From: Meghimatium bilineatum
Taxonomy: Eukaryota > Mollusca > Gastropoda > Stylommatophora > Philomycidae
Reading direction: 5' to 3'
Assembly: GCA_034231615.1 (NCBI GenBank)
Contig: CM067306.1
Location: 45,576,094 to 45,640,093, forward strand
Length of the DNA: 64,000 bases
This document shows positions 53,101 to 62,404 of this stretch, in pieces. The notes under the pieces are model-generated. The model made no database searches. It was given only the letters and a program-made list of their open reading frames with translations, and was not told where the DNA came from. Made by a program: the position numbers and the translations under genes. Numbering within the stretch: position 1 is the stretch's first letter; every line of letters begins with the position of its first letter.

Positions 53101-54788
53101 AGGAGTATTGCAGTTTAGTACGCCAAACTCGTTTTATTCTATGATATTACTAACAAATTGGGTGCACTGAAACTTACTACACCACAATTCAGTGTTAGCT
53201 GATCACAAATATGGTATCTTGTAGTTTACTTCGTCAGAACTGGCGTTACACACGAATTGGGTGTATTGCAGTTTAGTACGTATGAACTCGTTGTATTCTG
53301 GCATATTAATCACAAATTCATTGCACTGAAGTTTACTACACTAGAATTGAGTGTATACTGGCCTATTGCGCATGATTTCGTTGTATTGCAGCTTAATACG
53401 TCAGAAAACTGGCGCATCACATACGAAGTAGGAGTATTGCAGTTTAGTACGCCAAACTCGTTGTATTCTAGGATAGTACTAACAAATTGGGTGCACTGAA
53501 ACTTACTACACCACAATTCAGTGTTAGCTGATCACAAATATGGTATCTTGTAGTTTACTTCGTCAGAACTGGCGTTACACACGAATTGGGTGTATTGCAG
53601 TTTAGTACGTATGAACTCGTTGTATTCTGGCATATTAATCACAAATTCATTGCACTGAAGTTTACTACACTAGAATTGAGTGTATACTGGCCTATTGCGC
53701 ATGATTTCGTTGTATTGCAGCTTAATACGTCAGAAACTGGCGCATCACATACGAATTGGGTGTATTGCAGTTTAGATTGCCTAAACTCGTTGTATTCTGG
53801 CATATTACTCACAAATTCATTGTACTGAAGCTTACTACACTAGAATTGAGTGTATACTGGCCTATTGCACATGATTTCGTTGTATTGCAGCTTAATACTT
53901 CAGAACACTGGCGTATTAAACACGAAGTAGGAGTATTGCAGTTTAGTACGCCAAACTCGTTGTATTCTAGGATATTACTAACAAATTGGGTGCACTGAAA
54001 CTTACTACACCACAATTCAGTGTTAGCTGATCACAAATATGGTATCTTGTAGTTTACTTCGTCAGAACTGGCGTTACACACGAATTGGGTGTATTGCAGT
54101 TTAGTACGTATGAACTCGTTGTATTCTGGCATATTAATCACAAATTCATTGCACTGAAGTTTACTACACTAGAATTGAGTGTATACTGGCCTATTGCGCA
54201 TGATTTCGTTGTATTGCAGCTTAATACGTCAGAAAACTGGCGCATCACATACGAAGTAGGAGTATTGCAGTTTAGTACGCCAAAACTCGTTGTATTCTAG
54301 GATATTACTAACAAATTGGGTGCACTGAAACTTACTACACCACAATTCAGTGTTAGCTGATCACAAATATGGTATCTTGTAGTTTACTTCGTCAGAACTG
54401 GCGTTACACACGAATTGGGTGTATTGCAGTTTAGTACGTATGAACTCGTTGTATTCTGGCATATTACTCACAAATTCATTGTACTGAAGCTTACTACACT
54501 AGAATTGAATGTATTCTGGTCAATTACACATGATTTCGTTGTATTGCAGCTTCATACGTCAAAACACTGGCGAATACACACGAATTGGGTGTTCTGCAGT
54601 TTAGTACGCCAAAACTCGTTCTATTCTGGCATATTAATCACAAATTCAATGTACTGAAGCTTACTATACTAGAATTGAGTGTATACTGGCCTATTGCACA
54701 TGATTTCGTTGTATTGCAGCTTAATACGTCAGAACACTGGCGTATTACACAAGAATTGGGTGTATTGCAGTGTAGTACGCCAAAACTC
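50161..54788 (+). repeat. Region 3, left part: rearranged 171/159-bp satellite
   Basis: After the switch near 50,160 (ctgacatattactcac followed by aaattcaatg), the array resembles the 21.3-22.5 kb module, then passes into many D1 and D2 units. Two similar blocks start at the D1 motif at 50,554 and 51,373 (819 bp apart); the second has shortened motifs (cacaaatatgtatg, caacacagtttgc). A loss gives gaatttatccctatt near 52,366, and agcttcatacac near 52,505 joins two different units. No gene is present. Confidence 0.85.
53199..54414 (+). repeat. 329/499-bp local tandem copies
   Basis: The D2 motif gctgatcacaaatatgg recurs near 53,199, 53,528, 54,027 and 54,356, giving spacings of 329, 499 and 329 bp. 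The 329-bp block is one 171-bp unit plus a D2 unit that has lost one base (gccaaactcg for gccaaaactcg). The 499-bp block contains one further 171-bp unit and another one-base loss (cagaaactggcg). Rare variants gaagtttactacac and attgcgcatg are shared by these copies. Confidence 0.82.
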
Positions 54789-56119
54789 GTTGTATTCTGG
54801 AATATTACTCACAAATTCATTGTACTGAAGCTTACTACACTAGAATTGAATGTATTCTGGTCAATTACACATGATTTCGTATTGCAGCTTAATACTTCAG
54901 AGCACTGGCGTATTAAACACGAATTGGGAGTGTTGCAGTTTAGTACGCCAAAACTCGTTGTATTCTGGCATATTAATCACAAATTCATTGCACTGAAGCT
55001 TACTACACTAGAATTGAGTGTATACTGGCCTATTGCGCATGATTTCGTTGTATTGCAGCTTAATACGTCAGAAAACTGGCGCATCACATACGAATTGGGT
55101 GTATTCCAGTTTAGTACGCCTAAACTTGTTGTATTCTGGCATATTACTCACAAATTCATTGTAAAGCTTACTACACTAGAATTGAGTATATTCTGGCCCA
55201 TTACACATGATTTCGTTGCATTGCAGCTTCATACGTCAGAACACTAGAGTATACACACGAATTGGGTGTACTGCAGTTTAGTACACCAAAAATCGTTGTA
55301 TTCTGGCATATTACTCACTAATTTGGTGTACTGAAGCTTACTACACCACAACTAAGTGTTTGCTTGTCACAAATATGGTATGTTGTAGCTTACTTCGTTA
55401 GAACTGGCGTTACACACGAATTGAGTGTATTGCAGTTTATTACGTCAGAACTCGTTGTATTCTGGCATATTACTCACAAATTCATTGTACTGAAGCTTAC
55501 TACACTAGAATTGAATGTATTCTGGTCAATTACACATGATTTCGTTGTATTGCAGCTTAATACTTCAGAACACTGGTGTATTAAACACGAATTGGGAGTA
55601 TTGCAGTTTAGTACGCCAAAACTCGTTTTATTCTGGCATATTACTCACAAATTCATTGTACTGAAGCTTACTACACTAGAATTGAGTGTATACTGGCCTA
55701 TTGCACATGATTTCGTTGTATTGCAGCTTAATACTTCAGAACACTGGCGTATTAAACACGAAGTAGGAGTATTGCATTTTAGTACGCCAAACTCGTTGTA
55801 TTCTAGGATATTACTAACAAATTGGGTGCACTGAAACTTACTACACCACAATTCAGTGTTAGCTGATCACAAATATGGTATCGTGTAGTTCACTTCGTCA
55901 GAACTGGCGTTACACACGAATTGGGTGTATTGCAGTTTAGTACGTATGAACTCGTTGTATTCTGGCATATTAATCACAAATTCATTGCACTGAAGCTTAC
56001 TACACTAGAATTGAGTGTATACTGGCCTATTGCGCATGATTTCGTTGTATTGCAGCTTAATACGTCAGAAAACTGGCGCATCACATACGAATTGGGAGTA
56101 TTACAGTTTAGTATGCCTA

Positions 56120-56146
56120 AACTCGTTGTATTCTGGCATATTACTC
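56120..56146 (+). repeat. 27-bp direct repeat, left of RT fragment copy 1
   Basis: This satellite segment, beginning aactcgttg and ending tattactc, is repeated exactly at 56,502-56,528 on the other side of the insert. Deleting the insert and one repeat would rejoin the 171-bp unit in perfect phase. That is the expected form of a target-site duplication. Confidence 0.8.
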
Positions 56147-56501
56147 CAATCTTTCCTTCATTGGATGACTTGGCAAACACTGAAACTTTTCTGCTTGAAT
56201 TAGTACTTTTGTGTCTCTGCGTTCGCCAAGTGTTTGCATTCTTCCCATTTTCTGCATCTCTGCTATGGGTGTTGATTTCATTGCTCCCAACATTATTCTA
56301 AGTGCCTGGTTTTGCACTTTATCTAGATCTTGTAATGTGGTGTTTGATGCAGGACACCACGCAGCTGAACCGTATTCCAGGTGTGGTCTTATGCCTTGCT
56401 GGTAAACTTTACTGAGTATATGTCCACTGGCTCCCCATGTGGTTCCACTTAGTTTTCTCAGGATAGCTAGCTTCCTTCTGGCTTTTGTTGTTGCTTTGTT
56501 T
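56147..56501 (-). pseudogene. Non-LTR retrotransposon RT fragment, copy 1
   Basis: This 355-bp minus-strand piece is the only non-satellite sequence type in the window. It encodes an uninterrupted stretch of about 118 residues resembling the region after the catalytic palm of reverse transcriptases in jockey-like non-LTR retrotransposons. Recognisable motifs in order are KARRKLAILRKL, TTWGA, RPHLEYGSAAW, LDKVQNQALR, GAMKSTPI and, near the end, a HPMKERL segment. The catalytic FADD/YADD box, the endonuclease domain, the 5' end and the 3' end are absent, and there is no poly-A tail. At the open frame's start and end the reading runs into satellite (stop at the left boundary). It is therefore a dead internal fragment. 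It sits between two copies of a 27-bp satellite sequence. The clade assignment rests on motif recall and is less certain than the RT call itself. Confidence 0.88.
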
Positions 56502-56528
56502 AACTCGTTGTATTCTGGCATATTACTC
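56502..56528 (+). repeat. 27-bp direct repeat, right of RT fragment copy 1
   Basis: Exact partner of 56,120-56,146. The satellite continues from here with acaaattcattctactg, the correct continuation of the C subunit interrupted at 56,146. The change to ctactg instead of gtactg is private to this site and its 4,058-bp duplicate. Confidence 0.8.
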
Positions 56529-59500
56529 ACAAATTCATTCTACTGAAGCTTACTACACTAGAATTGAGTGTATACTGGCCTATTGCACATGATTTCGTTG
56601 TATTGCAGCTTAATACTTCAGAACACTGGCGTATTAAACACGAAGTAGGAGTATTGCAGTTTAGTACGCCAAACTCGTTGTATTCTAGGATACTACTAAC
56701 AAATTGGGTGCACTGAAACTTACTACACCACAATTCAGTGTTAGCTGATCACAAATATGGTATCTTGTAGTTTACTTCGCCAGAACTGGCGTTACACACG
56801 AATTGGGTGTATTGCAGTTTAGTACGTATGAACTCGTTGTATTCTGGCATATTACTCACAAATTCATTGTACTGAAGCTTACTAGACTAGAATTGAGTGT
56901 ATTCTGGCCTATTACACTTGATTTCGTTGTAGTGCAGCTTCATACGTCAGAACACTGGCGTATACACAAGAATTGGGTGTATTGCAGTGTAGTACGCCAA
57001 CTCTCGTTGTATTCTGGAATATTACTCACACATTCATTGTAGTGAAGCTTACTACACTAGAATTGAGTGTATACTGGCCTATTGCACATGATTTCGTTGT
57101 ATTGCAGCTTAATACTTCAGAACACTGGCGTATACACAAGAATTGGGTGTACTGCAGTTTAGTACGCCAAAACTTGTTGTATTCTGGAATATTACTCACA
57201 AATTCATTGTACTGAAGCTTACTACACTAGAATTGAGTGTATTCTGGCCTATTACACTTGATTTCGTTGTAGTGCAGCTTAAAACGTCAGAACACTTGCG
57301 TATTACACACGAATTGGGTGTATTGCAGTTTAAGTACACCAAAACTCTTTGCATTCTGGCAGATTACTCACTAATTTGGTGTACTGAAGCTTACTACACC
57401 ACAACTCAGTGTTTGCTTGTCACAAATATGGTATATTGTAGCTTACTTCGTTAGAACTGGCGTTACACACGAATTGAGTGTATTGTAGTTTAGTACGTCA
57501 GAACTCGTTGTATTCTGGCATATTACTCACAAATTCATTGTACTGAAGCTTACTACACTAGAATTGAATGTATTCTGGTCAATTACACATGATTTCGTTG
57601 TATTGCAGCTTAATACTTCAGAACACTGGTGTATTAAACACGAATTGGGAGTATTGCAGTTCAGTACGCCAAAACTCGTTTTATTCTGGCATATTAATCA
57701 CAAATTCATTGTACTGAAGCTTACTACACTAGAATTGAGTGTATACTGGCCTATTGCACATGATTTCGTTGTATTGCAGCTTAATACTTCAGAACACTGG
57801 CGTATTAAACAGGAAGTAGGAGTATTGCAGTTTAGTACGCCAAACTCGTTGTATTCTAGGATATTACTAACAAATTGGGTGCACTGAAACTTACTACACC
57901 ACAATTCAGTGTTAGCTGATCACAAATATGGTATCTTGTAGTTCACTTCGTCAGAACTGGCGTTACACACGAATTGGGTGTATTGCAGTTTAGTACGTAT
58001 GAACTCGTTGTATTCTGGCATATTAATCACAAATTCATTGCACTGAAGCTTACTACACTATAATTGAGTGTATACTGGCCTATTGCGCATGATTTCGTTG
58101 TATTGCAGCTTAATACGTCAGAAAACTGGCGCATCACATACGAATTGGGTGTATTGCAGTGTAGTACGCCAAAACTCGTTGTATTCTGGAATATTACTCA
58201 CACATTCATTGTAGTGAAGCTTACTACATTAGAATTGAGTGTATTCTGGCCTATTACACATGATTTCGTTGTATTGCAGCTTAATACTTCAGAACACTGG
58301 CGTATTAAACACGAAGTAGGAGTATTGCAGTTTAGTACGCCAAACTCGTTGTATTCTAGGATAGTACTAACAAATTGGGTGCACTGAAACTTACTACACC
58401 ACAATTCTGTGTTAGCTGATCACAAATATGGTATCTTGTAGTTTACTTCGTCAGAACTGGCGTTACACACGAATTGGGTGTATTGCAGTTTAGTACGTCA
58501 GAACTCGTTGTATTCTGGCATATTACTCACAAATTCATTGTACTGAAGCTTACTACACTAGAATTGAGTATATTCTGGCCCATTACACATGATTTCGTTG
58601 TATTGCAGCTTCATACGTCAGAACACTGGCGTATACACAAGAATTGGGTGTATTGCAGTGTAGTACGCCAAAACTCGTTGTATTCTGGAATATTACTCAC
58701 ACATTCATTGTAGTGAAGCTTACTACATTAGAATTGAGTGTATACTGGCCTATTGCACATGATTTCGTTGTATTGCAGCTTAATACTTCAGAACACTGGC
58801 GTATATACAAGAATTGGGTGTACTGCAGTTTAGTACGCCAAAACTTGTTGTATTCTGGAATATTACTCACAAATTCATTGTACTGAAGCTTACTACACTA
58901 GAATTGAATGTATTCTGGTCAATTACACATGATTTCGTATTGCAGCTTAATACTTCAGAGCACTGGCGTATTAAACACGAATTGGGAGTGTTGCAGTTTA
59001 GTACGCCAAAACTCGTTGTATTCTGGCATATTAATCACAAATTCATTGCACTGAAGCTTACTACACTAGAATTGAGTGTATACTGGCCTATTGCGCATGA
59101 TTTCGTTGTATTGCAGCTTAATACGTCAGAAAACTGGCGCATCACATACGAATTGGGTGTATTCCAGTTTAGTACGCCTAAACTTGTTGTATTCTGGCAT
59201 ATTACTCACAAATTCATTGTAAAGCTTACTACACTAGAATTGAGTATATTCTGGCCCATTACACATGATTTCGTTGCATTGCAGCTTCATACGTCAGAAC
59301 ACTAGAGTATACACACGAATTGGGTGTACTGCAGTTTAGTACACCAAAAATCGTTGTATTCTGGCATATTACTCACTAATTTGGTGTACTGAAGCTTACT
59401 ACACCACAACTAAGTGTTTGCTTGTCACAAATATGGTATGTTGTAGCTTACTTCGTTAGAACTGGCGTTACACACGAATTGAGTGTATTGCAGTTTATTA

Positions 59501-60177
59501 CGTCAGAACTCGTTGTATTCTGGCATATTACTCACAAATTCATTGTACTGAAGCTTACTACACTAGAATTGAATGTATTCTGGTCAATTACACATGATTT
59601 CGTTGTATTGCAGCTTAATACTTCAGAACACTGGTGTATTAAACACGAATTGGGAGTATTGCAGTTTAGTACGCCAAAACTCGTTTTATTCTGGCATATT
59701 ACTCACAAATTCATTGTACTGAAGCTTACTACACTAGAATTGAGTGTATACTGGCCTATTGCACATGATTTCGTTGTATTGCAGCTTAATACTTCAGAAC
59801 ACTGGCGTATTAAACACGAAGTAGGAGTATTGCATTTTAGTACGCCAAACTCGTTGTATTCTAGGATATTACTAACAAATTGGGTGCACTGAAACTTACT
59901 ACACCACAATTCAGTGTTAGCTGATCACAAATATGGTATCGTGTAGTTCACTTCGTCAGAACTGGCGTTACACACGAATTGGGTGTATTGCAGTTTAGTA
60001 CGTATGAACTCGTTGTATTCTGGCATATTAATCACAAATTCATTGCACTGAAGCTTACTACACTAGAATTGAGTGTATACTGGCCTATTGCGCATGATTT
60101 CGTTGTATTGCAGCTTAATACGTCAGAAAACTGGCGCATCACATACGAATTGGGAGTATTACAGTTTAGTATGCCTA

Positions 60178-60204
60178 AACTCGTTGTATTCTGGCATATT
60201 ACTC
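60178..60204 (+). repeat. 27-bp direct repeat, left of RT fragment copy 2
   Basis: Same segment as 56,120-56,146 at offset 4,058, copied with the whole block. Confidence 0.8.
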
Positions 60205-60559
60205 CAATCTTTCCTTCATTGGATGACTTGGCAAACACTGAAACTTTTCTGCTTGAATTAGTACTTTTGTGTCTCTGCGTTCGCCAAGTGTTTGCATTCT
60301 TCCCATTTTCTGCATCTCTGCTATGGGTGTTGATTTCATTGCTCCCAACATTATTCTAAGTGCCTGGTTTTGCACTTTATCTAGATCTTGTAATGTGGTG
60401 TTTGATGCAGAACACCACGCAGCTGAACCGTATTCCAGGTGTGGTCTTATGCCTTGCTGGTAAACTTTACTGAGTATATGTCCACTGGCTCCCCATGTGG
60501 TTCCATTTAGTTTTCTCAGGATAGCTAGCTTCCTTCTGGCTTTTGTTGTTGCTTTGTTT
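60205..60559 (-). pseudogene. Non-LTR retrotransposon RT fragment, copy 2
   Basis: This is the second copy of the same internal RT fragment, exactly 4,058 bp to the right. It arose with the surrounding duplication and not by a new insertion: both flanks, the 27-bp direct repeats and the neighbouring satellite variants are shared. It differs from copy 1 at two bases I can see, 60,411 (A for G, giving Ser for Pro in the segment after RPHLEYGSAAW) and 60,506 (T for C, giving Asn for Ser before GTTWGA). Both change residues and neither creates a stop. The fragment has no start of its own, no catalytic core and no 3' end, so no activity is expected. Confidence 0.88.
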
Positions 60560-60586
60560 AACTCGTTGTATTCTGGCATATTACTC
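60560..60586 (+). repeat. 27-bp direct repeat, right of RT fragment copy 2
   Basis: Same segment as 56,502-56,528 at offset 4,058, followed by the same private attctactg variant. Confidence 0.8.
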
Positions 60587-62404
60587 ACAAATTCATTCTA
60601 CTGAAGCTTACTACACTAGAATTGAGTGTATACTGGCCTATTGCACATGATTTCGTTGTATTGCAGCTTAATACTTCAGAACACTGGCGTATTAAACACG
60701 AAGTAGGAGTATTGCAGTTTAGTACGCCAAACTCGTTGTATTCTAGGATACTACTAACAAATTGGGTGCACTGAAACTTACTACACCACAATTCAGTGTT
60801 AGCTGATCACAAATATGGTATCTTGTAGTTTACTTCGCCAGAACTGGCGTTACACACGAATTGGGTGTATTGCAGTTTAGTACGTATGAACTCGTTGTAT
60901 TCTGGCATATTACTCACAAATTCATTGTACTGAAGCTTACTAGACTAGAATTGAGTGTATTCTGGCCTATTACACTTGATTTCGTTGTAGTGCAGCTTCA
61001 TACGTCAGAACACTGGCGTATACACAAGAATTGGGTGTATTGCAGTGTAGTACGCCAACTCTCGTTGTATTCTGGAATATTACTCACACATTCATTGTAG
61101 TGAAGCTTACTACACTAGAATTGAGTGTATACTGGCCTATTGCACATGATTTCGTTGTATTGCAGCTTAATACTTCAGAACACTGGCGTATACACAAGAA
61201 TTGGGTGTACTGCAGTTTAGTACGCCAAAACTTGTTGTATTCTGGAATATTACTCACAAATTCATTGTACTGAAGCTTACTACACTAGAATTGAGTGTAT
61301 TCTGGCCTATTACACTTGATTTCGTTGTAGTGCAGCTTAAAACGTCAGAACACTTGCGTATTACACACGAATTGGGTGTATTGCAGTTTAAGTACACCAA
61401 AACTCGTTGCATTCTGGCAGATTACTCACTAATTTGGTGTACTGAAGCTTACTACACCACAACTCAGTGTTTGCTTGTCACAAATATGGTATATTGTAGC
61501 TTACTTCGTTAGAACTGGCGTTACACACGAATTGAGTGTATTGTAGTTTAGTACGTCAGAACTCGTTGTATTCTGGCATATTACTCACAAATTCATTGTA
61601 CTGAAGCTTACTACACTAGAATTGAATGTATTCTGGTCAATTACACATGATTTCGTTGTATTGCAGCTTAATACTTCAGAACACTGGTGTATTAAACACG
61701 AATTGGGAGTATTGCAGTTCAGTACGCCAAAACTCGTTTTATTCTGGCATATTAATCACAAATTCATTGTACTGAAGCTTACTACACTAGAATTGAGTGT
61801 ATACTGGCCTATTGCACATGATTTCGTTGTATTGCAGCTTAATACTTCAGAACACTGGCGTATTAAACAGGAAGTAGGAGTATTGCAGTTTAGTACGCCA
61901 AACTCGTTGTATTCTAGGATATTACTAACAAATTGGGTGCACTGAAACTTACTACACCACAATTCTGTGTTAGCTGATCACAAATATGGTATCTTGTAGT
62001 TTACTTCGTCAGAACTGGCGTTACACACGAATTGGGTGTATTGCAGTTTAGTACGTCAGAACTCGTTGTATTCTGGCATATTACTCACAAATTCATTGTA
62101 CTGAAGCTTACTACACTAGAATTGAGTATATTCTGGCCCATTACACATGATTTCGTTGTATTGCAGCTTCATACGTCAGAACACTGGCGTATACACACGA
62201 ATTGGGTGTATTGCAGTGTAGTACGCCAAAACTCGTTGTATTCTGGAATATTACTCACACATTCATTGTAGTGAAGCTTACTACATTAGAATTGAGTGTA
62301 TACTGGCCTATTGCACATGATTTCGTTGTATTGCAGCTTAATACTTCAGAACACTGGCGTATATACAAGAATTGGGTGTACTGCAGTTTAGTACGCCAAA
62401 ACTT

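Follow-up and report, generated by a model that had tools for sequence, protein, structure and literature searches.

How does an internal piece of a retrotransposon, with neither end of its element, come to lie between exact direct repeats in a satellite array? The question is raised by a 355-bp insert in a 64,000-nucleotide stretch of Meghimatium bilineatum DNA (hereinafter the window; C9:45576094-45640093 of a 1.61-Gb assembly in 32 contigs), which consists of satellite with a period of 171 except for two interruptions, at 56147-56501 and 60205-60559.

The insert, its duplicate and the empty site

The features on which the argument rests are the following.

56120..56146, no strand: left copy of the 27-bp duplicated target sequence (exact repeat; single at the empty site, with one mismatch)
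56147..56501, minus strand (sense): internal LINE fragment, element nt 2641-2995 of 4054 (match to the parent loci and Pfam domains of the parent ORF)
56502..56528, no strand: right copy of the 27-bp duplicated target sequence (exact repeat)
60178..60204, no strand: left 27-bp repeat of the second insert (sequence comparison within the window)
60205..60559, minus strand: second copy of the LINE fragment, with 2 differences from the first (comparison with the first copy and the parents)
60560..60586, no strand: right 27-bp repeat of the second insert (sequence comparison within the window)
54749..58131, no strand: copy 1 of an array segmental duplication, carrying the insert (offset 4058, 20 mismatches in 3383 bp)
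58807..62189, no strand: copy 2 of the array segmental duplication (offset 4058 from copy 1)
57500..58899, no strand: paralogous segment of the array without the insert, the empty site (the joined flanks align to it at 97.7% with no gap)

The direct repeats flanking the first insert are identical over exactly 27 bp and extend no further on either side, as a preliminary description of the locus had reported. That description had also claimed that removing the insert and one repeat restores the satellite phase, and had proposed a search for the empty site; both were borne out. When the flanks are joined over one 27-bp repeat, the resulting 1400 bp match 57500-58899 with 32 differences, whereas the next best place reaches 93.4%, and because the match is gapless and in register, the satellite phase is restored and an empty site exists. 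By comparison with this paralogue, the insertion brought a net gain of the insert plus 27 bp, with no loss of sequence. That the two repeats are identical is in itself modest evidence, since two units of one type taken at random agree over a whole 27-mer with a probability of 0.11; of the 356 comparable unit positions in the window, 102 have this 27-mer. Judged from the alignment, the gapless, in-register empty site is the stronger evidence.

The second insert, absent from the preliminary description, recurs together with both repeats at 60178-60586. It lies within the array segmental duplication, whose two copies differ by just 3 of their 20 mismatches between 54789 and 57907, and this location suggests that one insertion event probably gave rise to both insert copies, the second through segmental duplication. 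Genome-wide, the right-hand junction is exact only at the two window copies, with one more place on C3 at 2 mismatches, and among the 40 candidates scored out of 403 the full 409-bp query (insert plus repeats) is matched only by the two window copies. Both differences between the insert copies, at positions homologous to 56353 and 56448, are changes in the second copy (G to A and C to T, respectively, on the plus strand); at either position the first copy agrees with the eight parent loci described below, all of which have the same base. Outside the insert, the other 2.8 kb of 54789-57907 contain one difference between the duplicate copies. Besides the 4058-bp offset, an ungapped comparison over offsets 300 to 39999 finds 22 others with one or more 1500-bp stretches of at least 99% identity, which indicates that recent segmental copying is common in the array.

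The parent LINE

The other 38 of the 40 candidates scored are LINE copies outside the window. Eight of these loci were read at about 10 kb each, and thirty copies were read through two 251-bp windows placed at the expected 3′ end and the full-length 5′ end. The parent element, represented by the L009 copy, is 4054 bp long and has a single ORF of 1305 residues, in which Pfam places an endonuclease at residues 195-303 (PF14529/PF03372), RT at 592-836 (PF00078) and RNase H at 1053-1178 (PF00075). An APE-type endonuclease, RT and RNase H thus occur in one element, as in I-like LINEs, to which we provisionally assign the parent. The family is large and recent, judging from 5508 occurrences of the exact 24-mer from the fragment start in the 1.61-Gb genome and from the 99.66-99.93% likeness of L003 to L004-L008 over 2.9 kb.

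The parent search proposed in the preliminary description thereby places the insert at element nt 2641-2995 on the minus strand. It is identical at 353 of 355 positions to five of the eight 10-kb loci and at 352 of 355 to the other three, so that the match to a LINE is not a matter of chance. The 5′ part, the 3′ part and the (GAA)n tail of the element are all absent, in agreement with the earlier observation that the insert has no 5′ end, 3′ UTR or tail. The description of the insert as an internal RT piece holds in that it is internal to the ORF (residues about 846-964), but its position is immediately downstream of the Pfam RT domain rather than in the RT core, in the interval that separates RT from RNase H. 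A Pfam search with the fragment alone returned no domain, nothing was found in the viral contigs searched, and a single PDB match at E 0.41 was taken as chance.

Ordinary copies of the parent LINE

The 3′ end is readable in 37 of the 38 copies, and all 37 carry the element's 3′ end followed by a (GAA)n tail. Target-site duplications, measurable in 25 of the 38, span 9-13 bp. Among the remaining 13 copies, one is unreadable, in two no duplication was found and ten have no recognised 5′ start in the stretch read; the last group includes L065 and L067, with an odd 5′ start and no clear duplication, and L069, which shows a 12-bp duplication once its start, L105, is read. For human full-length L1, duplications peak at 14-16 bp according to the available text of PMC2912911.

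The 25 sites define a cut motif, mostly (A/T)(A/T)T(T/C) before A or G. Scored against this motif, which is built on 25 sites of the parent LINE only, the satellite site reaches -2.79, lower than any leave-one-out score of those sites (-1.97 to 4.83). A score at least this high is found at 34% of array positions, and the opposite polarity gives -3.52. The insert ends 1059 bp short of the element's 3′ end and tail, its duplication is 27 bp instead of 9-13 bp, and its site scores below every real one. Since tail, duplication length and site are all unlike those of the family, the insert is not an ordinary insertion of the parent LINE.

Two further features of the family were seen in these copies. 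The 3′ flank of L049 (C7:71547905-71548155) is, by eye, the LINE's own coding sequence, and this copy seems to be inserted into another copy with a 12-bp duplication. Within L065-L068 (C1:18.315-18.326 Mb), a pair of LINE copies separated by about 6 kb has identical 5′ and 3′ flanks in the bases seen and looks like a local duplication.

The ends of the fragment

At the left junction, the element's 3′ side, 7 of 20 bases match the parent's continuation by raw count, and at the right junction 8 of 20 match, with 1 nt of microhomology. Base 56147 differs from all eight 10-kb parents, and the base found there is carried by 6 of 98 non-window places among the matches listed (191 counted, 2 of them the window's). 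This odd base may be untemplated or may come from a variant LINE copy.

A search for copies sharing the fragment's 5′ end yielded 25 places in which the second upstream base differs from the parent. Two are the window's; each of the remaining 23 was read and then classified by its upstream matches and by visual inspection. Four of the 23 (L105, L112, L119 and L127) are true truncations at exactly element nt 2641 with an intact 3′ continuation; most of the remaining places appear to be point or indel variants, with L109 apparently rearranged. Three of the copies starting at nt 2641 have duplications of 12, 12 and 9 bp, and none was found for L127. A crude, post hoc hand estimate, which assumes that truncation affects the 5508 copies in the proportion of 11 in 38, with evenly spread end points, and that three in four are seen, gives 0.45 expected copies with this end and a probability of 0.0012 for at least four, rising to 0.013 at an expectation of 0.9 and to 0.066 at 1.5. 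The common start of these copies could possibly mark a recurrent reverse-transcription stop, and if the shared end is real, the patch would have been made by reverse transcription.

The corresponding filter for the 3′ end lets through about 42% of true cases and fails to recover the copies in the window. It returned six places, of which five look by eye like small-indel variants and the sixth, C21:53261577, is a candidate; with this filter, no other copy was established to have the fragment's 3′ end. The preliminary description had named two observations that would speak for an ordinary element terminus or for a defined mobile element, namely a parent 3′ end at 56147 and further copies with the same ends. 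The former is ruled out, as the parent runs 1059 bp further, and no other copy with both fragment ends was found by the end searches or among the 40 candidates scored out of 403. A mobile element with both ends fixed thus finds no support, the four same-5′-end places among the 23 all continuing on the 3′ side.

Origin of the insert

We rank first, with slightly better than even confidence, that the insert is a filler patch at a staggered break, copied from LINE cDNA or DNA. A satellite unit nicked in both strands, at points offset by about 27 nt, would have suffered a staggered double-strand break, a 355-nt internal piece of the abundant LINE would have been joined between the ends, and filling in of both overhangs would have generated the 27-bp duplication. 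This reading accounts at once for the lack of a tail, for the length of the duplication and for a site that does not fit the motif. In its favour, the insert has neither the 3′ end nor the (GAA)n tail kept in all readable copies, and its 27 bp stand against the 12, 12 and 9 bp of the three copies cut at the same 5′ nucleotide. The near-blunt junctions, the 1-nt microhomology and the odd base at 56147 also count for it, as microhomology and untemplated bases are described for class 2 templated insertions in the available text of PMC5110952, and breaks with 3′ overhangs give small duplications ascribed to fill-in in that of PMC8355091. The same text of PMC5110952 presents class 2 patch insertions as being without target-site duplication and takes a duplication of at least 5 bp as a mark of class 1 (LINE-machinery), so a filler patch needs the overhang fill-in. 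The 5′ end common to four LINE copies, hinting at the LINE's own reverse-transcription stops, argues against a filler patch, as do the possibility that base 56147 is templated and the fact that the motif test rests on 25 sites.

The strongest competitor, which we hold tentatively and consider less probable, is tailless retroposition, in which the satellite was nicked by an enzyme of the parent LINE or of another LINE family, which then primed reverse transcription inside LINE RNA or on a broken RNA, an early stop setting the 5′ end and a wide second-strand cut leaving 27 bp. It would explain a clean duplication with no loss of target DNA, and perhaps the 5′ end shared with four LINE copies whose 3′ ends are intact (the hand-estimated P of 0.0012); mammalian tailless retropseudogenes with duplications, ascribed to internal priming, set a precedent in the available text of PMC5322556. 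The duplication length and site motif are nevertheless unlike those of the parent LINE, the baseline being the parent LINE only, and the complementarity between target and RNA at the priming point reported in the same text contrasts with the 7 of 20 bases at the left junction. The preliminary description had left aberrant retrotransposition and a repair patch side by side; the evidence supports this in part and leans to the patch, which is favoured because the duplication lies outside the family range and the site off the family cut motif.

The flanks could instead belong to two separate satellite units that were brought together around a captured fragment, with the 27-bp repeat being the array's own repetition, as the frequency of the 27-mer among units and the 0.11 chance of agreement between random units would allow. 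Taken alone, the left 200 bp are best matched near 54950 (194/200) and the right 200 bp near 53811 (198/200), each slightly above the copy at 58200 (193/200 for either flank), and with 150 bp from both sides the top places at 58050 (287/300) and 63609 (286/300) are nearly level. The differences from the empty copy also cluster at the insert, with 12 in 200 flanking bases versus 20 in the other 1200 (P 0.0009). Such a joining is improbable, given that 700 bp on each side match one paralogue in register and without gaps (97.7%, the runner-up reaching 93.4%) and that the 60 bp closest to the insert on either side agree on a single unit class (116/120). The 12 clustered differences all lie within 90 bp of the insert, the minority base being in the filled copy at 5, in the empty copy at 5 and mixed at 2, and in the filled unit 2 of 120 bases are rare, a count reached or exceeded by 13% of units. 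Mutation linked to the insertion was rejected on these two grounds, and local gene conversion is a possible explanation of the cluster. An assembly artefact, to which long arrays are prone because they are difficult to assemble, is very improbable here, as the insert copies differ at 2 bases, like real paralogues, and share both junctions.

If a filler patch is the origin, a later unequal exchange or copy event in the array would have duplicated about 3.4 kb including the patch. The divergences suggest that the filled and empty segments split first (32 of 1400), that the insertion followed, the insert having one difference from its nearest parents besides the junction base, and that the 3.4-kb duplication came last; conversion in the array could blur these dates.

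The array and wider implications

Samples of C9 between 44.59 and 46.21 Mb are satellite and those at 44.30 and 46.50 Mb are not. Our guess is that the array is the centromere, and breaks at centromeres are treated in the available text of PMC7618268. The array sequence read amounts to about 197 kb (the window, L019-L031, L057-L064, L106 and L107, with overlaps subtracted by hand) and showed no further insert. Satellite matches covered it without leaving any other gap of at least 6 bp, although BLAST may bridge short inserts, which could thus escape notice. A single event gives no insertion rate.

A broader proposal, which we regard as unlikely though worth stating, is that in this genome breaks in a megabase satellite array are occasionally patched with LINE cDNA ending at the LINE's own reverse-transcription stops, leaving long duplications, and that array copying then spreads the patch. 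If true, it would provide a route for retrotransposon scraps to enter and multiply in satellite arrays without normal transposition. Here the parent family, the empty site, the family's duplication length and cut motif, and the later duplication of the patch are all found in one genome, which provides a sound baseline for testing how the insertion came about.

Comparison with known systems

Small tandem duplications at staggered breaks are reportedly also the subject of a study by Vaughn and Bennetzen in 2014. As described in the available text of PMC8355091, such events resemble the present one in that the stretch between offset breaks is duplicated, but they have no foreign insert between the copies, where 355 bp are present here.

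The human class 2 templated sequence insertion polymorphisms (TSIPs) of PMC5110952 are alike in that a distant templated piece is patched into a break with near-blunt junctions. The templates of TSIPs include partial LINE-1 elements, comparable to the LINE fragment here, and the experimental insertions of 73 to 414 bp bracket our 355 bp. The insert shares with them the absence of a LINE tail and of a LINE target motif, the latter judged by the parent LINE's motif only, and differs by its 27-bp duplication from class 2 as described in the available text. Repair-patch insertions are difficult to detect in satellite arrays, and the survey discarded highly repetitive alpha-satellite sequence, leaving sites of this kind outside its scope.

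Tailless retropseudogenes (PMC5322556, available text) are alike in the missing 3′ tail, the flanking duplication and, in some, the 5′ truncation, all present in our insert. They fit an L1-like motif and RNA complementarity, whereas the insert fits neither for the parent LINE. Endonuclease-independent LINE-1 insertion (Morrish 2002, as described in PMC5110952) likewise places tailless LINE sequence at a pre-existing break, but is described there without target-site duplications, in contrast to the 27 bp found here. The class of mechanism is already known.
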